NCBI GenBank assembly: GCA_030041535.1 | Contig: JASHNR010000030.1 | Span: 1 to 61,688 of the forward strand | Length of the DNA stretch: 61,688 bases | Reading direction: 5' to 3' | DNA from: Nitrosopumilaceae archaeon | Lineage (GTDB): Archaea; Thermoproteota; Nitrososphaeria; Nitrososphaerales; Nitrosopumilaceae | Part shown: one piece after another, positions 17,845-31,711 of the stretch | How positions within the stretch are numbered: the stretch's first letter is position 1 | How the letters are laid out: each line of letters starts with the position of its first letter | Translations under genes and position numbers: made by a program | The notes under the pieces: model-generated | What the model saw: only the letters and a program-made list of their open reading frames with translations | Databases searched by the model: none | Told to the model about the DNA's origin: nothing

Positions 17845-18255
17845 ATGGCTCTAAAAGCTGCTATCATAATGTCAATAATATCGATAATCATGTTGGCAAT
17901 TTACGGCATTGATGTTATTGTGGCAGGTCCTGAAGCGAGTTCAAATGGAATGACAGGCTTTCTTCCAATGGATGATAAATCCAGGGGGACTATATTTGGG
18001 ATAATACCATCTGTAATGCTGATAGCATCATTTTTCATTACACGAAAAGAACCATCAAGCACACTTGGAATTCTAATAATCATTGGAGGAGCCATGATTA
18101 TTGTTGGTACAGGCGTAATTTTGGCAATATCTGGAGGTCAATCTCAAAATACTCAAACTATGAGAGATTTTGGACCGGTGTTGGGCATAGGAGTTGTAAT
18201 AATATTTCTTGGTGGTCTTAAAATTAAAAGATCAAGACGCTCAGTTATAACCTAA
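17845..18255 (+). CDS. Four-helix membrane protein of unknown function
   Basis: 136 residues with hydrophobic helices at about 5-26, 48-66, 73-95 and 109-125, and a basic tail (KIKRSRRSVIT). No family recognised. It lies 68 bases after the prepilin peptidase on the same strand, so co-transcription is possible but not shown. Confidence 0.7.
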   Translation: MALKAAIIMSIISIIMLAIYGIDVIVAGPEASSNGMTGFLPMDDKSRGTIFGIIPSVMLIASFFITRKEPSSTLGILIIIGGAMIIVGTGVILAISGGQSQNTQTMRDFGPVLGIGVVIIFLGGLKIKRSRRSVIT

Positions 18256-18313: not shown

Positions 18314-18460
18314 ATGCACATTTGCGCAAAGTGTAGGCAAGAGGCTAAGAAAGTGTATGACTGCGAACATACAAATGATCAAGAATATTGTGTTGAATGC
18401 TATACTGAATTGCATTATTATCTAACGGAAAGCACAAAAAAAGAAAAAAATCCAGTCTAG
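18314..18460 (+). CDS. 48-residue zinc-finger mini-protein
   Basis: Begins MHICAKCRQEAKKVYDCEH and ends in a lysine-rich tail. It has CxxC, then CEH, then CVEC, that is five cysteines plus histidine in a four-ligand treble-clef/zinc-ribbon arrangement. The spacing of ligands is far from random in AT-rich DNA, which is the main evidence that it is a gene. No enzyme domain fits in this length. Probably a nucleic-acid or protein adaptor. Confidence 0.65.
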   Translation: MHICAKCRQEAKKVYDCEHTNDQEYCVECYTELHYYLTESTKKEKNPV

Positions 18461-18636: not shown

Positions 18637-19335
18637 ATGGGCTGTTTGTATGTGAAGACAGTAATTCTGTCGGGCGGAATGGGAAAGAGATTAAGACCAT
18701 TGACAGATTATCTTCCAAAACCACTTCTGCCTGTAGATGGTATCCCTATAATAGAATGGCAAATACAATATTTCAAAAAATTTGGGATCAATGAATTCAT
18801 TGTATGTGCAGGTTATCGCGCAGAACAACTGATTAGTTTTTTAAAATCTAAAAATTTTGGCGTGAAAGTGAGCTTTTCTGTGGAAAAAACACCTCTTGGC
18901 ACTGGAGGCGCGATACGTAAAGCACGTAAGTATATTGGTAGTGACAACTTCTTTGTAATAAATGGGGATGTTATAACTAATTTGGATTTGAGTAGGCTGA
19001 AAAAGAAACCTAATTCAATAGCAGTAATGCCATTGAGAACAAGCTTTGGTATAGTGAATCTTAATGGGGAAAAAATTGAAAAATTTGAGGAAAAACCTGA
19101 ATTGTTCAATTATTGGATGAATGCGGGTGTCTATTATCTTCAAAATAGAGTCATAAACATGCTCCCAATGTCGGGCAATATTGAAAATACTACCTTTCCA
19201 GCACTTGCCAAAATGGGAAATTTGTACGCAACTAGATACGACAAAGCGTTTTGGCATTCTATTGATTCACACAAAGATATTGCTGAATGTACAAACCGAA
19301 TGCAATCAATTCAATATGCGTCTTTCTTACAATGA
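18637..19335 (+). CDS. Sugar-phosphate nucleotidyltransferase
   Basis: 232 residues from ATG 18637; GTG 18652 is a likely alternative, giving VKTVILSGGMGKRL. The nucleotide-binding loop is LSGGMGKRLRPLT, with KPLLPV as the second signature. GTGGAIRKA and the metal-binding aspartate in VINGDVITN are also present. It forms an NDP-sugar from a sugar 1-phosphate; mannose- or glucose-1-phosphate is typical but not resolvable. No hexapeptide acyltransferase domain is attached. It is followed within nine bases by the LLM oxidoreductase and two more coupled genes. Confidence 0.9.
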   Translation: MGCLYVKTVILSGGMGKRLRPLTDYLPKPLLPVDGIPIIEWQIQYFKKFGINEFIVCAGYRAEQLISFLKSKNFGVKVSFSVEKTPLGTGGAIRKARKYIGSDNFFVINGDVITNLDLSRLKKKPNSIAVMPLRTSFGIVNLNGEKIEKFEEKPELFNYWMNAGVYYLQNRVINMLPMSGNIENTTFPALAKMGNLYATRYDKAFWHSIDSHKDIAECTNRMQSIQYASFLQ

Positions 19336-19343
19336 AGTGATAC

Positions 19344-20318
19344 GTGTTGAGAATTGGTTTTAGTCTTGGATCTTTGCTGTCAATTACAGAAATAATAAAA
19401 TGCTCCAAAATCCTTTCATATTATGACCCAGATTCAATATGGATTCCAGAAACATGGGGAATGGAGTGTAGTTCAATATTATCTGCTGTAACACAGATAG
19501 CAAAAAAACCAAAACTTGGCTCATCAATTATCAATATTTATTCGCGTACTCCTTCACTTGTTGCAATGCATGCCGTAACAATAGATACCCTTTCTAATGG
19601 CAGATTGATTCTGGGATTGGGGACAAGTAGCAAGGCAATTGTTGAAGATTGGCATGGTTTAGAGTTTAAAAAGCCTTTACAAAGGATGCGCGAATACGTT
19701 GAAATAGTAAGGCAGGTGACATCGGGAAATAAAGTCAGTTACCGCGGTGAATTTTTTCATCTTAGAAATTTTAATCTGTTGACAAAGCCTGTAAGAAATA
19801 AAATTCCAATTTATCTAGCTGCAGTTAATAAAAAAATGGTGGAGTTAACATGGGAAATAGGGGATGGGATCATATTCTATCTGAGACCTTTGGATGAGAT
19901 GCGTAATATGATTATAACAATGCAAAAAAAGAAAAAAATTGATGTTGCTTGTCAATTGATAACATGCGTATCAAATGATACCGAAAAAGCAATAACGAAA
20001 GCAAAAAAGACAATAGCATTTTATGTGTCTGTAGGAAAAATCTACAGGGAATTCTTGGCAAAGAATGGATATGAAAGAGAAACAAGGGAAATATTTGAAG
20101 AGTATGAAAAAGTAGGGCTAGGTGAAAGTTATAAATTTGTCCCGGATTACATGGTGGACTCTTTGGCATTATGTGGAACTCCTGATTACATGCGAAAAAA
20201 ACTAGTCCAGTATGTAAGAGCAGGTGTGGATTTGCCTATACTTCAATTCAATCCTGTTGGTGATGTTACAGAGTCTTTCAAACTACTTGTTTCTGCCTTG
20301 GAGAGTGATATGACTTGA
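19344..20318 (+). CDS. LLM-class (F420-dependent type) oxidoreductase
   Basis: 324 residues. Family marks: start RIGFSLGS, DSIWIPETWGME, the non-prolyl cis-peptide-type strand KLGSSIINIYSRTPSLVAMH, RLILGLGTSS, and RMREYVEIVRQ. This resembles the MTHMPT-reductase/luciferase-like group using F420 or flavin. The substrate is unknown. The start is GTG 19344 or TTG 19347. The stop overlaps the next gene by four bases, so it is translationally coupled to the thiolase. Confidence 0.9.
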   Translation: MLRIGFSLGSLLSITEIIKCSKILSYYDPDSIWIPETWGMECSSILSAVTQIAKKPKLGSSIINIYSRTPSLVAMHAVTIDTLSNGRLILGLGTSSKAIVEDWHGLEFKKPLQRMREYVEIVRQVTSGNKVSYRGEFFHLRNFNLLTKPVRNKIPIYLAAVNKKMVELTWEIGDGIIFYLRPLDEMRNMIITMQKKKKIDVACQLITCVSNDTEKAITKAKKTIAFYVSVGKIYREFLAKNGYERETREIFEEYEKVGLGESYKFVPDYMVDSLALCGTPDYMRKKLVQYVRAGVDLPILQFNPVGDVTESFKLLVSALESDMT

Positions 20319-21424
20319 GAAGAGTAGGTATTGCATCATCAGGTCTGACCAAATTCACAAAGAACGAGATCCCACTAGAATCACTTATGGTATCATCTAT
20401 CAAACCTATTTTTGATAATGCAAGGAATTTGACTCAGAAAGACATTGATGTTGTTCTGACATCTACTAATGCTAATGAAAAATATCTGGCAAACATAGTT
20501 TCAGAATTATCCGGAATTTCACCAAAAATTTCTCATTCCGTCGAGAGTTTGTGTAACTCTGGAACGAATTGTATAGTGTCTGCATTTGCATACATTTCAT
20601 CAGGACTTGCTGATGTTGCATTAGTTGTAGGTGCGGAAAGAAGTAATAGTCCTGGTCTGGTATTTGGTTGGGATAAATCAAGAGGACAGTATAAACATCC
20701 GATATATTGGTCATCTCTTTTCACAGGTGCACACATGAGAAAATATGGAACTACGATGGATGATCTTGCACATGTTTCAGTCAAAAATCATCACAATGCA
20801 CTAGATAATCCATATTCTTATTTTGAGCGCTCTTATTCTTTTGAAGATGTTATGCAATCAAAGAGTCTTACCGATAATATCAGACTATTGGATTGTTCAA
20901 TGTCGTGTAGTGGGGCCGCGTCAATTTTACTTGCTTCTGAAAACATCATAAGAAAATTCACCGAAGATCCGGTATGGATAAAAGGTATTGGACAAAAATC
21001 GATTTCCGCTGGCTTTACAAAAAATAATGATCTTTCATCTATGGAAAGTACATCATTAGCATCTTCTGATGCGTATATGATGTCTCATAGTTCTCCATCT
21101 GACATAGATGTGGCTGAACTACATGACGCTTTTAGCATATGTGAGATAATGGCATTAGAGGATTTGAAACTTGTAGAACGTGGACAAGGATCTACCTATG
21201 TCAAAAACTTGTACGAAACAAATGACAAGAAAATCAATCCAAGGGGAGGATTAATTGGTACTGGTCATCCATTAGGAGCTACTGGCATAGCACAAACAAT
21301 AGAGATGTATCAACAACTTAAAGGAACATCTGGGAAAAGACAAGTTGATGGGGCTAAGACTGCATTAGTTCATAACATGTCGGCAGCTGCAACATCTTCC
21401 ACCGTACTAATATTGCAGTCATGA
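20315..21424 (+). CDS. SCP-x-like thiolase (acetyl-CoA acetyltransferase family)
   Basis: 369 residues. The nucleophile cysteine lies in SLCNSGTNC. The HDAF motif corresponds to the NEAF/HDCF region, and GTGHPLGATGI supplies the catalytic histidine. The usual C-terminal glycine-rich motif with a cysteine or GGSG is replaced by HNMSAAATSS, which may alter chemistry. It is coupled by four-base overlaps both to the LLM gene and the DUF35 gene. Archaeal thiolases commonly act as a complex with DUF35 and HMG-CoA synthase, but here HMG-CoA synthase lies 9 kb away. Confidence 0.9.
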   Translation: MRRVGIASSGLTKFTKNEIPLESLMVSSIKPIFDNARNLTQKDIDVVLTSTNANEKYLANIVSELSGISPKISHSVESLCNSGTNCIVSAFAYISSGLADVALVVGAERSNSPGLVFGWDKSRGQYKHPIYWSSLFTGAHMRKYGTTMDDLAHVSVKNHHNALDNPYSYFERSYSFEDVMQSKSLTDNIRLLDCSMSCSGAASILLASENIIRKFTEDPVWIKGIGQKSISAGFTKNNDLSSMESTSLASSDAYMMSHSSPSDIDVAELHDAFSICEIMALEDLKLVERGQGSTYVKNLYETNDKKINPRGGLIGTGHPLGATGIAQTIEMYQQLKGTSGKRQVDGAKTALVHNMSAAATSSTVLILQS

Positions 21425-21747
21425 ATAGATTTGAACAAGAATTAAAGAACAATAATTTCATTTGTAGTGAATGCCTAAAGTGTAAAAAACTTGTTTGGCC
21501 TCCCAGTGAATATTGTAACAAATGCTTTGGAAAAGTAATCTGGAGACCGATCTCGCGTAATGCCACGTTGTTAGAATATTCGAGTAGAAATGGGGAGTAT
21601 TTCTGTATTGCAGAATTAGAAGGACAGATAAGAATCATGGGTACGATTCAAAATGTTTCAGAATTACAAATAGGAGAAAATATGATTTTAGAAAAGTGTG
21701 ATTATGATGGCAGCGAGAAATTCATATTTAAATTAAAAAAAGATTGA
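21421..21747 (+). CDS. DUF35 zinc-ribbon/OB-fold partner of thiolase
   Basis: 108 residues. An N-terminal rubredoxin-like zinc ribbon (CSECLKC and CNKCFG) is followed by an OB fold (ATLLEYSSRNGEYFCIAELE). In the archaeal thiolase/HMG-CoA synthase complex, such a protein bridges the two enzymes and helps channel acetoacetyl-CoA. The ATG overlaps the thiolase stop by four bases. Confidence 0.88.
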   Translation: MNRFEQELKNNNFICSECLKCKKLVWPPSEYCNKCFGKVIWRPISRNATLLEYSSRNGEYFCIAELEGQIRIMGTIQNVSELQIGENMILEKCDYDGSEKFIFKLKKD

Positions 21748-22990: not shown

Positions 22991-23374
22991 ATGGCTAGTA
23001 CGATAATCGAATTGATGAGTTTTGAAGACTTTGTAGATGAAAGAAGCTTAGTAAGTCACGATGCGTTGGGAACAAAAGAAATCAAATTGAAGCTTTTGGA
23101 GGTACAAGATGATACCTCAGATCATGTATGGCGATTTGGGGTACGTGTAAAGGTGAAAAAGATCCTAGTTACAATAAAACACATCAGAACGCAACAGGTT
23201 GAAGAAGGCGAATTTGACTTGCAGGAGATTGAAAAAGAATTGAAGGAAAAACGACATTATAGTTCCACAAATAGGTGGGTTCAAACAACTGATATAAAAA
23301 ATGGTTACATACTCAGTACTAGACATGCCTCATTACTAGGTGACGCTGTAGCATTAGATTATATCGTCATTTGA
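22991..23374 (+). CDS. Conserved hypothetical protein
   Basis: 127 residues, no signal or membrane segment, and a balanced composition with alternating strands (EIKLKLLEVQ, WRFGVRVKVKKILVTIKH) that looks like a small beta-rich fold. Not assigned to a family. Its end overlaps the convergent flavin reductase gene by eight bases. Confidence 0.72.
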   Translation: MASTIIELMSFEDFVDERSLVSHDALGTKEIKLKLLEVQDDTSDHVWRFGVRVKVKKILVTIKHIRTQQVEEGEFDLQEIEKELKEKRHYSSTNRWVQTTDIKNGYILSTRHASLLGDAVALDYIVI

Positions 23375-24266
23375 TCAGTGATTTTAAAACTGGATCTGTT
23401 TTAACTAACTTCCAAAAATAAAATTTAGATCTATTTTTTATTTTTCCCTCAAACAATATGAAGTTAATTCTCTGGACTCTATCTCCATTTTTCATGATTA
23501 ATCGTTTTAGTCTTGGTTCTTCTTTCAACGTTATGCTAAATTTCATACTTTGAAGGTAGTTTTCAAGTGATCTTTTGTAGTCTTGATTTTTCTTAGGTTG
23601 AATGAATGGTATGATACTAACCAAATTTTGTCCTGGATTGCTAGTGACTAACATTTTATTTTTTGATCTTACAATGACACCAGCACATTTTATAATAAAT
23701 TTATTTTCAGATTGTCTGTGAAATAAGTTAAACGTCTTTTTATTGACTATCACTTTATCTCTGATTGGTTCTATTATCGATCCAATTCTAAAGTACCTGT
23801 TACGATGATATGCCAGTGGGTTTTTTGTTTCATCATATCTTATTGAAACAACTCTTCCAACAACCATGGTATGATCGCCTATTTTTTTGATTGTAAATAA
23901 TTTACATTTAGCATTTATTAGACAATCAGCAATTAAAGGAACCCCTGTTTTCTTTAATCCTAGTATTTGAAATGAATTATGAATATTTAATTTGTCAATT
24001 TCCTTTCTAGAATACCCTCCTGCGATACTGACTAGAGTGGATTGCTTTTCTGATGCAACATTGACACCAAACTGTTTTGTCTTTCTGATATTCTTTAATG
24101 TACTAGATCCTTCATGAATGAACACGGCAATTAACATTGGCTCATATGAAATTTGCATAGTCCATTCTGCTGCCATAACATTTTGTCCATTAGGACCATT
24201 AGAAGTGATCAAACTTATGCCCGTCATGAAAAGTTGTTGTGCACTCTGCATGATTTTCTTCTTCAT
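23367..24266 (-). CDS. Flavin reductase-like protein with extra C-terminal domain
   Basis: 299 residues. The first ~165 are a flavin reductase (FMN-binding split-barrel) domain: TGISLITSNGPNG, NVMAAEWTMQIS, IRKTKQFGVNVAS, HTMVVGRVVSI. The remaining ~130 residues start with CAGVIVRSKNKMLVTSNPG, which resembles the first strand of a Nudix fold, but no Nudix box follows. The usual family length is ~160-200, so the C-terminal part is an addition whose role is unknown. It probably reduces or binds FMN. Confidence 0.82.
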   Translation of the reverse strand: MKKKIMQSAQQLFMTGISLITSNGPNGQNVMAAEWTMQISYEPMLIAVFIHEGSSTLKNIRKTKQFGVNVASEKQSTLVSIAGGYSRKEIDKLNIHNSFQILGLKKTGVPLIADCLINAKCKLFTIKKIGDHTMVVGRVVSIRYDETKNPLAYHRNRYFRIGSIIEPIRDKVIVNKKTFNLFHRQSENKFIIKCAGVIVRSKNKMLVTSNPGQNLVSIIPFIQPKKNQDYKRSLENYLQSMKFSITLKEEPRLKRLIMKNGDRVQRINFILFEGKIKNRSKFYFWKLVKTDPVLKSLIK

Positions 24267-30316: not shown

Positions 30317-31711
30317 TTGGCTGCAGGTATAGATGATATAGCCATCTACGTTCCAAGGTTATTTGTAGACGCCAGAGATTTTGCAAAAGCTCGTGGTATG
30401 GATCCAGATAAACTTCAACGTGGACTAGGTGTTTCTCAGATGGCTATTGTGGATACTAATCAAGATCCTGCATGTATGGCAGCCAATGCATGTCTAAGGT
30501 TAATTGAGAGAAACAGACTTGTCCCAAAAGATATTGGGAGACTCTATGTAGCTACCGAGTCTTCGCTTGACGAATCAAAAGCTATGAATTCTTATGTTAT
30601 AGGCATGTTGGAGCAAATTTACGGTGATGATTCTTTAGAGCACTGTGGCGGCATCGAATGTAAATTTGCATGTGTTAGTGGTTCATATGCATTATATGAT
30701 AACTCAAACTGGATTAGGGCCGGCGAGGCTGAAGGAAAGTATGCAATCGTAGTTGTCTCTGACATTGCAAAGTATGATCTGGGCTCTAGTGGCGAATATA
30801 CTCAAGGCGCAGGCGCTGTTGCAATGTTATTAAGTGACACTCCAAGAATTATGACCTTCGATCCAAAGGTAACATCTACTTCAATAAAAAACGAGTATGA
30901 TTTCTACAGGCCATTTGGGAAGGAAACTCCTATTGTCAATGGACAATACTCCAATCTACTTTATATGATTCAGGTAAAGAAAGCGCTGATGGCATACAGA
31001 GAAAAAGCATTATCCACAGGTTTGATTAAACTAAAGGAAGGAGAGACAATCTTAGATTATATTGATTTCATAAATATGCATCTTCCATACAGTAACATGG
31101 GCAAGAAAGCGCTTGCCTATCTGTTGAGACATGAGTGGAGAAATATGCCATATTGGAAAAAAATAATCGAAAAGATGGGAATGGCTGAACCTGCGCCGAA
31201 AGACCCGAGAGGAACAATTGAATCCGTTCTTGCTGATGAAGATTTTATGGCAAAAGACCATGAATTTACAAAGCGATTTACACAAACTGAAGAATTTCAA
31301 GACGCGTATGATTCAAAACTTGCAAGCTCTCTGATTGCGTCAAGAATAGTTGGAAATCTATATACTGCATCTCTCTACATGGGGTTCAGAAGCTGCCTTG
31401 AATTTGAGTTTCAGAAAGGAACTGATCTAGAAGGAAAAAGATTTGGATTTGGCTCCTATGGAAGCGGTAGTAGTGCAATGGTCTTCAGTGGGGTAATAAT
31501 GCCAACATACAAAGAAATTGTAAAAGACATGAATTTAGAGTCAGAAATAGGCAACAGGGTAAAGGTCTCACTTGAAGAATATGAGGAAATTCACGAAAAT
31601 AAGCGCGGTCTAAATGATAATCTTATAGATAGCAAAAAAGAATTTGTTTTGGCAGGTATCGCGAATACTCCTGAGATGCGTGGTCAACGCACGTATGTTT
31701 TCAAAGAATAG
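30317..31711 (+). CDS. hmgS: Hydroxymethylglutaryl-CoA synthase
   Basis: 464 residues from TTG 30317. The catalytic cysteine is in CKFACVSGSYAL, and IDDIAIYVPRLFVD and FGSYGSGSSAMVFSG are family marks. It condenses acetoacetyl-CoA with acetyl-CoA, the entry to mevalonate and archaeal lipids. The protein is longer than most archaeal (~350-residue) enzymes and resembles the longer eukaryal/bacterial-type length. Unlike in many archaea, no thiolase or DUF35 gene is adjacent. Confidence 0.93.
   Translation: MAAGIDDIAIYVPRLFVDARDFAKARGMDPDKLQRGLGVSQMAIVDTNQDPACMAANACLRLIERNRLVPKDIGRLYVATESSLDESKAMNSYVIGMLEQIYGDDSLEHCGGIECKFACVSGSYALYDNSNWIRAGEAEGKYAIVVVSDIAKYDLGSSGEYTQGAGAVAMLLSDTPRIMTFDPKVTSTSIKNEYDFYRPFGKETPIVNGQYSNLLYMIQVKKALMAYREKALSTGLIKLKEGETILDYIDFINMHLPYSNMGKKALAYLLRHEWRNMPYWKKIIEKMGMAEPAPKDPRGTIESVLADEDFMAKDHEFTKRFTQTEEFQDAYDSKLASSLIASRIVGNLYTASLYMGFRSCLEFEFQKGTDLEGKRFGFGSYGSGSSAMVFSGVIMPTYKEIVKDMNLESEIGNRVKVSLEEYEEIHENKRGLNDNLIDSKKEFVLAGIANTPEMRGQRTYVFKE

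Follow-up and report, generated by a model that had tools for sequence, protein, structure and literature searches.

The window analysed here is a 61,688-nucleotide stretch of DNA from a Nitrosopumilaceae archaeon (GCA_030041535.1, contig JASHNR010000030.1). Its plus strand carries a single tight operon of four genes, encoding a nucleotidyltransferase (NT), a luciferase-like oxidoreductase (LLM), a thiolase and a DUF35-like partner. An 8-base gap separates NT from LLM, and 4-base overlaps join LLM to the thiolase gene and the thiolase gene to the DUF35 gene; the ORF coordinates confirmed this spacing, which had been described in an earlier note on this DNA. The same note had named the four gene products correctly, the DUF35 assignment being weak by sequence and backed by the predicted fold. 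Matches in a sigma-70 and terminator scan, whose coverage leaves out archaeal promoters, were no commoner than in shuffled sequences. The features are as follows, where f1 denotes the window's own family, f8 the Nitrososphaeraceae, and f2 and f3 two further families that carry the operon:

17845..18255, plus strand: small membrane protein (TM; 136 aa), found with either this operon or bio genes in each of the four families
18637..19335, plus strand: NT, sugar-1-phosphate nucleotidyltransferase-like, operon gene 1 (232 aa, ATG start)
19344..20318, plus strand: LLM, luciferase-like oxidoreductase (324 aa, GTG start)
20315..21424, plus strand: thiolase (369 aa, TTG start)
21421..21747, plus strand: DUF35-like partner, zinc ribbon plus OB fold (108 aa, ATG start)
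22991..23374, plus strand: conserved protein h127 (127 aa), downstream of the DUF35 gene
23367-24266: flavin reductase, near the module in f1
30317..31711, plus strand: HMG-CoA synthase (NF041302, E 1e-91), outside the module, with about 8.6 kb between it and the DUF35 gene

The first gene product matched the sugar nucleotidyltransferase domain PF00483 (NTP_transferase, E 2e-31), and its nearest solved structures were mannose-1-phosphate guanylyltransferase-like proteins. With the GGxGKRL, PKPL and NGD motifs visible in the alignment, NT appears to be catalytically intact. LLM matched PF00296 (Bac_luciferase) with an E-value of 7e-68 (229.7 bits against a cut-off of 27.9), and its nearest solved structures were F420-dependent methylene-H4MPT reductases (E 3e-32); its scores lay below the cut-offs of the specific F420 subfamily models (TIGR04024, 207.6 bits; TIGR03559, 194.1 bits; Mer, 143-147 bits). 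Judging from its similarity to these reductases, LLM is probably F420-dependent, and we propose that it is the reductase of an acyl-CoA intermediate. The flavin reductase was considered as a partner of LLM and set aside, being near the module in f1 only.

The thiolase matched PF22691 (Thiolase_C_1, E 2e-32), and its AlphaFold model (pLDDT 92.6) matched the acetoacetyl-CoA thiolase of 6et9 with a TM-score of 0.93. In the tree, it fell into a separate clade (support 100/100), apart from the HMG-CoA-pathway-type thiolases. The same genome encodes, on contig C57, a canonical HMG-pathway thiolase with its own DUF35 protein, and this second thiolase groups with the archaeal HMG-pathway-type enzymes. 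The catalytic residues of the window thiolase are C80, H270 (HDxF), H318 (GHP, which reads GHS in f2) and N354, and the first three are invariant among the 20 ammonia-oxidizer sequences compared. At the C-terminus, the HNxGG motif is replaced by HN[ML][SA]A: the change of Gly to Ala at position 357 is fixed in 20 of 20 sequences, and His353, a proposed catalytic residue, is Gln in three rows of the alignment. Thus, the departure of HNMSAA from the family, as the earlier note had claimed, is real and clade-wide. The altered chemistry that had been read from it does not follow, because Cys80, His270 of HDxF and His318 of GHP are all retained. D120, R123, W132 and A357 are specific to this clade. 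Arg123, which is fixed and missing from canonical relatives, lies in a shortened loop that is partly of low confidence in the model (pLDDT < 50), and we infer that it may bind a substrate carboxylate.

For the DUF35-like protein, the zf-ChsH2 zinc-ribbon model scored 21.9 bits, just under its cut-off of 23.2, and the OB-fold Pfam model gave no match, neither curated cut-off (PF12172, PF01796) being reached. Cys18, Cys21, Cys32 and Cys35 are invariant, as in a four-cysteine zinc ribbon. The predicted structure (pLDDT 94.1), in which an OB fold comes after the zinc ribbon, had its best PDB matches among the DUF35 subunits of solved thiolase complexes, with matches to the DUF35 chains of 9skh, 7pyt, 6ok1, 6esq and 3irb. 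Together with the adjoining thiolase gene, this leads us to propose that the protein is a subunit of the thiolase.

Four families of ammonia-oxidizing archaea (f1, f2, f3 and f8) share this gene order, which is kept at nearly all of their loci having sufficient flanking DNA, so the arrangement in the window is more than a product of chance. LLM lies directly 5' of the thiolase gene in all four families, and NT, which is nearly always present, lies upstream of LLM in f1, f2, f8 and one of the two f3 genomes. As exceptions, NT sits beyond BioD, on its far side, in G054 (f3), the NT-LLM gap is 4.1 kb at locus L105, and in f2 the DUF35 gene was not found adjoining the thiolase gene. In marine Nitrosopumilus, the NT-LLM gap is wider (about 230-460 bp), and LLM, thiolase and DUF35 are more tightly linked to each other than NT is to LLM. 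TM adjoins NT in f1, BioD in f2 and f3, and NT/BioD or BioA in f8; in f3, and in one genome of f2, TM and NT are separated by a gene for a GlmS-like SIS-domain isomerase. The h127 gene, found immediately 3' of the DUF35 gene in f8 and somewhat farther downstream in f1, is possibly an accessory of the module.

Linkage to biotin genes was tighter outside f1. Of the 51 Nitrososphaeraceae genomes that have both the thiolase and BioB, 35 carry them on a shared contig, always with a separation of 3.0-18.1 kb and in four different arrangements of side and strand. One genus of this family (g8) shows, in the genomes mapped, the order BioA-BioB-BioF-NT-LLM-thiolase-DUF35 on a single strand. In f2, no more than about 6 kb separates BioD and BioA from the operon, and in G054 BioD, BioF, BioB and BioA all lie within about 14 kb of it. 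For f1, 53 of the 56 genomes with both genes on the same contig have BioB at most 75 kb away (median 20 kb), a loose neighbourhood that plain synteny could explain. The bio genes of the window's own genus are 27-67 kb off or on other contigs, so the biotin link is visible in relatives only.

This thiolase clade is missing from those families of the order in which BioB is missing, and f1, f2, f3 and f8 have both. A few nearly complete f1 drafts showed a mismatch: G012 and G152 keep the thiolase with no BioB seen, and G157, G174 and G215 have BioB with no thiolase ortholog seen. Draft gaps may account for these cases. When apparent thiolase losses were checked, G208 had an apparently frameshifted copy and G117 a fragment; in G121, the operon is on a different contig from BioB. 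amoA was present in all four carrier families, so presence alone cannot tell biotin from other ammonia-oxidizer traits, and only the neighbourhood can. Presence or absence alone was therefore dropped as evidence, both genes being nearly universal in f1.

BioW was found in none of 61 genomes, with the positive controls Bacillus subtilis and Methanocaldococcus jannaschii detected, and no BioC/BioH-like genes were found adjoining the bio cluster of the window genome. The operon resembles bioZ in its linkage to bioFADB where known pimelate genes are missing, the absence of BioW coming from the search above and that of BioC/BioH from published work. Because it is conserved and lies beside bio genes in most lineages outside the window's family, the operon probably supplies the C7 building block from which biotin synthesis starts. 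According to a study on Nitrososphaera gargensis, the bioA, bioB and bioD genes of this archaeon complement E. coli but BioF does not, which its authors read as possible specificity for pimeloyl-CoA; the same study states that a known pimelate gene was not found and that the pimeloyl source was unknown (PMC6138646).

We consider it fairly likely that the operon is the missing early biotin module of ammonia-oxidizing archaea, with the thiolase/DUF35 pair condensing on CoA to reach pimeloyl-CoA. The link to biotin comes from gene context, and the reactions, substrates and cofactor are proposed. The thiolase with its DUF35 subunit would carry out a CoA-based Claisen condensation, in which a short dicarboxylic acyl-CoA primer (glutaryl-CoA, or malonyl-CoA over two rounds) would form a thioester on Cys80 and be extended by acetyl-CoA to 3-oxopimeloyl-CoA. 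LLM would contribute one F420-dependent reduction, and the resulting pimeloyl-CoA would pass to BioF, BioA, BioD and BioB, so that acyl-carrier protein, BioC/BioH and BioW would all be dispensable. More tentatively, and at slightly less than an even chance, ammonia-oxidizing archaea may have an ACP-free pimelate pathway of their own, unlike the BioC/H, BioW/I and BioZ routes, in which a dedicated thiolase/DUF35 enzyme would lengthen a dicarboxyl-CoA primer to the C7 chain on CoA, together with an F420-dependent reductase and perhaps by way of an intermediate activated with a nucleotide. Such an intermediate, if present, would account for NT; a sugar nucleotidyltransferase fits no pimelate route that we know of, which counts against the main reading. 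A specific, conserved candidate of three to four genes is now named for the pimelate step in these archaea, one that would explain the missing known pimelate genes and fits the failure of archaeal BioF in E. coli. Carbon fixation in ammonia-oxidizing archaea uses biotin-dependent carboxylases.

Alphaproteobacterial BioZ, which condenses glutaryl-CoA with malonyl-ACP to build the pimeloyl chain (PMC7645780), is likewise a bio-linked condensing enzyme with a Cys, and like it the window enzyme would extend a dicarboxyl-CoA primer and bypass BioC/BioH. However, BioZ is a KAS III (FabH) homologue using malonyl-ACP, whereas the window enzyme belongs to the thiolase family and, with DUF35 and LLM, would use acetyl-CoA and no ACP. 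The archaeal acetoacetyl-CoA thiolase/DUF35/HMG-CoA synthase complexes (6et9, 6esq) share with it the thiolase fold, the DUF35 partner and the HDxF and GHP motifs, but the window thiolase differs in its separate clade, in a loop about 10 residues shorter with fixed D120/R123/W132, in the Gly-to-Ala change in HNxGG, and in being unlinked to HMG-CoA synthase outside f1. BbsAB (7pxp), PhlABC (5m3k) and Ltp2-ChsH2 (6ok1) also combine a catalytic subunit of thiolase fold with a DUF35 protein made of a zinc ribbon and an OB fold, although they serve toluene, phloroglucinol and steroid pathways at 21-26% identity; they show that such a pair can form or cleave C-C bonds in a wide range of substrates. 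An F420-type LLM gene also stands beside thiolase genes in mycobacterial cholesterol catabolism, where Rv3520c is an F420 oxidoreductase, Rv3521 a conserved protein and Rv3522 the Ltp4 thiolase (PMC6429209). The window LLM scores 194 bits against the Rv3520c family cut-off of 335, and the Rv3520c pathway is a different one. Rv3521 is presumably a DUF35 protein. For N. gargensis itself, a hypothetical reverse beta-oxidation for pimelate has been drawn from scattered general genes, with Ngar_c17490 as a possible ketoacyl-CoA thiolase; the passages of that study consulted here mention neither the conserved LLM-thiolase-DUF35 module nor its cross-family bio linkage (PMC6138646). By gene count from the bio cluster of G085, we infer that Ngar_c17490 is the ortholog of the window thiolase.

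The same bio gene context would suit an oxidative role, in which LLM, as a flavin monooxygenase (BioI-like or Baeyer-Villiger), would cleave or add oxygen to a precursor that is longer or cyclic, and thiolase/DUF35 would trim the product to pimeloyl-CoA by thiolysis. Some luciferase-like enzymes are monooxygenases, ammonia oxidizers live in the presence of O2, thiolases work in either direction and a flavin reductase is nearby in f1. Yet among solved structures LLM is closest to F420-dependent reductases rather than FMN monooxygenases, the flavin reductase was not found adjoining the module outside f1, and archaea are not known to have a source of the acyl chain, which makes this role quite improbable. 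The apparently intact and nearly always present NT, the SIS-domain isomerase and the many other traits common to ammonia oxidizers would fit another product, such as a nucleotide sugar or lipid with a glycosyl or acyl modification, with the bio adjacency being regulatory or due to chance. We regard this as unlikely, as the operon has stayed close to bio genes through multiple rearrangements in f8 and is again close to them in f2 and f3, NT is the more loosely linked gene in marine Nitrosopumilus, and no glycosyltransferase was recognised among the neighbours searched. The earlier note had suggested a different pathway, perhaps making a modified lipid or cofactor: a cofactor fits the biotin context, although that link itself had escaped it, while the lipid idea finds no support, no lipid or glycosyltransferase gene being consistently linked.

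A function as acetoacetyl-CoA thiolase feeding HMG-CoA synthase for isoprenoid lipids would agree with the fold, closest to 6et9, and with the HMG-CoA synthase gene nearby in f1. This partnership is largely refuted, and we rate it as extremely improbable: the canonical pair on C57 bears out the suggestion that the window pair acts apart from HMG-CoA synthase, the window thiolase is in another clade, and HMG-CoA synthase was unmatched in the f2, f3 and f8 stretches, lying near the thiolase in f1 loci only. It is also very unlikely that biotin synthesis starts by a BioH-like route through the esterase EstN1, with the operon unrelated to pimelate. EstN1 does complement bioH mutants of E. coli and bioZ mutants of M. 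loti; however, the authors of that study allow promiscuity as the basis, and state that a BioC analogue was not found in the N. gargensis genome and that acyl-carrier proteins are not known for archaea (PMC6138646).

Beyond the ammonia oxidizers, the thiolase clusters revealed by a contig scan for distant relatives were of the canonical or another type, and bio genes were detected in none of them. A 3-kb contig labelled Woesearchaeota (L109) carries a relative and looks like misbinned ammonia-oxidizer DNA. In G046 (family f11), which has no BioB, LLM-thiolase-DUF35 adjoins two CoA-transferase genes, and this module is perhaps a catabolic sister system.

The four genes that the earlier note had placed at 18637-21747, all on the plus strand, were borne out, and they are separated by one 8-base gap and two 4-base overlaps:

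18637-19335, plus strand, nucleotidyltransferase (NT; NTP_transferase, strong domain score)
19344-20318, plus strand, luciferase-like oxidoreductase (LLM; Bac_luciferase, strong domain score)
20315-21424, plus strand, thiolase (Thiolase_C_1, strong domain score)
21421-21747, plus strand, DUF35-like protein (zinc-ribbon model just below cut-off; predicted fold)

In the domain search, the DUF35-like protein had no match to the OB-fold domain model and a zinc-ribbon score only just under the cut-off. Its structure model (pLDDT 94) showed both a zinc ribbon and an OB fold, and nearly all of its best PDB matches were DUF35 subunits from thiolase complexes. The thiolase model (pLDDT 92.6) matched the Methanothermococcus acetoacetyl-CoA thiolase at a TM-score of 0.93. 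The LLM protein fell below the cut-off of every specific subfamily model searched, and its nearest solved structure was the F420-dependent Mer. Between NT and an upstream gene for a small membrane protein lies a 48-aa Cys-rich ORF (18314-18460, plus strand) with two CxxC pairs, possibly a zinc microprotein. A flavin reductase (23367-24266, minus strand), found near the operon only in the window's own family (f1), carries an extra C-terminal stretch of about 140 aa without a Pfam match.

The window's genome has two amoA copies, and its source is therefore an ammonia-oxidizing archaeon. A thiolase search over 61 related genomes, with a loose cut-off that also caught the canonical paralog, gave matches in 59; the ortholog proper was found in f1 (including Nitrosopumilus, Nitrosarchaeum and Nitrosotalea), Nitrososphaeraceae (f8; including Nitrososphaera and Nitrosocosmicus) and two further archaeal families, f2 and f3. 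The earlier note had proposed looking for the same gene order elsewhere, and NT-LLM-thiolase-DUF35 was indeed kept in nearly all loci with enough flanking DNA. The exceptions (no DUF35 gene found adjoining the thiolase in f2, NT displaced from the operon in the f3 genome G054, and an NT-LLM gap of 230-460 bp in marine Nitrosopumilus and 4.1 kb in locus L105) indicate that the tight core is LLM-thiolase-DUF35. The thiolase gene of one single-contig Nitrosopumilaceae genome (G208, locus L174) is apparently split by a frameshift, possibly a sequencing error.

The operon thiolase and DUF35 could have been the HMG-CoA pair, but we rejected this reading because a second thiolase-DUF35 pair exists on another contig (C57) of the same genome, the operon thiolases form a separate clade, and HMG-CoA synthase lies near the operon in f1 only. 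Maximum-likelihood analysis of 43 thiolases placed the 20 operon copies from ammonia oxidizers in one group (support 100/100) and the C57 thiolase with archaeal HMG-pathway-type thiolases. The sister of the operon group comes from G046 (family f11), where an LLM-thiolase-DUF35 set (L050:6135-10411) without NT sits beside two CoA-transferase subunit genes; no BioB was found in this genome, and the set is perhaps a catabolic relative.

The gene neighbourhood is what suggests a role of the operon in biotin precursor synthesis. In one f8 genome (G043), BioA, BioB and BioF precede the operon on the same strand. Thiolase and BioB shared a contig in 35 of the 51 f8 genomes with both, 3.0-18.1 kb apart in all 35, and BioB was seen upstream and downstream, on the same and the opposite strand, in all four combinations. 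In f2, about 6 kb at most separates BioD and BioA from the operon, with BioB and BioF elsewhere, and the order in G054 is thiolase, LLM, integrase, BioD, small membrane protein, GlmS-like SIS-domain isomerase, NT, then BioF, BioB and BioA. The link is looser in f1, where 53 of the 56 genomes with both genes on one contig have BioB no more than 75 kb away (median 20 kb), and the window's own genome has BioA-BioB-BioF on a different contig, C3. Related families without BioB also lacked the thiolase clade; two nearly complete drafts had the thiolase without BioB, and three had BioB without the thiolase. Since the carriers are ammonia oxidizers, presence alone would also fit other shared traits. 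A search for the pimeloyl-CoA synthetase BioW detected both positive controls and gave no match in any of the 61 genomes. The small membrane protein (17845-18255) accompanies the operon or BioD/BioA in all four families.

One of the genomes compared, G085, is presumably N. gargensis. Chow et al. 2018 (PMC6138646) report that N. gargensis bioA, bioB and bioD function in E. coli and that bioF fails, possibly owing to its need for pimeloyl-CoA. In their paper the pimeloyl source is given as not known, the promiscuous esterase EstN1 is put forward as a BioH analogue, Ngar_c17490 is listed as a possible ketoacyl-CoA thiolase of a hypothetical reverse beta-oxidation, and the bio cluster is tagged Ngar_c17540-17580. 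Starting at this cluster in G085 and stepping back gene by gene, we infer that the thiolase is c17490, LLM c17500 and NT c17510. Our literature coverage was incomplete, and in it no paper was found that names these genes as one module or reports that they are linked in several families.

In the proposed route, the best supported of those considered, a dicarboxyl-CoA and acetyl-CoA would be condensed by thiolase/DUF35, a reduction step would be performed by LLM, and pimeloyl-CoA would be taken up by BioF. This condensation has its closest functional parallel in the BioZ reaction, a condensation of glutaryl-CoA and malonyl-ACP (PMC7645780); BioZ is a KAS III enzyme whereas the operon enzyme is a thiolase, so the latter would work in a BioZ-like manner without being BioZ. 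Cys80, His270 and His318 are fixed in the operon clade. Compared with canonical relatives, the clade has one loop shortened by about 10 residues, with fixed Asp120, Arg123 and Trp132, which most or all of those relatives lack. These active-site features agree with the proposed condensation. Arg123 might hold the free carboxylate, which is a guess because loop residues 121-126 are of low confidence in the thiolase model. The departure of the HNMSAA motif, taken earlier as a sign of altered chemistry, is real, with Ala replacing Gly at position 357 throughout the clade, but it removes no catalytic side chain.

The proposed route offers no step for NT, the small membrane protein or the GlmS-like isomerase seen in f2 and f3. 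The isomerase gene lies between the membrane protein gene and NT in f3 and one f2 genome (L045:4529-5560, L049:11755-12819), a position suggesting that NT was formerly part of an amino-sugar module. Between BioA and BioB, two Nitrososphaeraceae genomes carry a serine-recombinase (resolvase) domain gene (L070:12797-13660, minus strand; L084:12985-13590, plus strand), which may be a regulator instead of a recombinase, and many other f8 genomes have similar-sized unidentified ORFs at the same spot.
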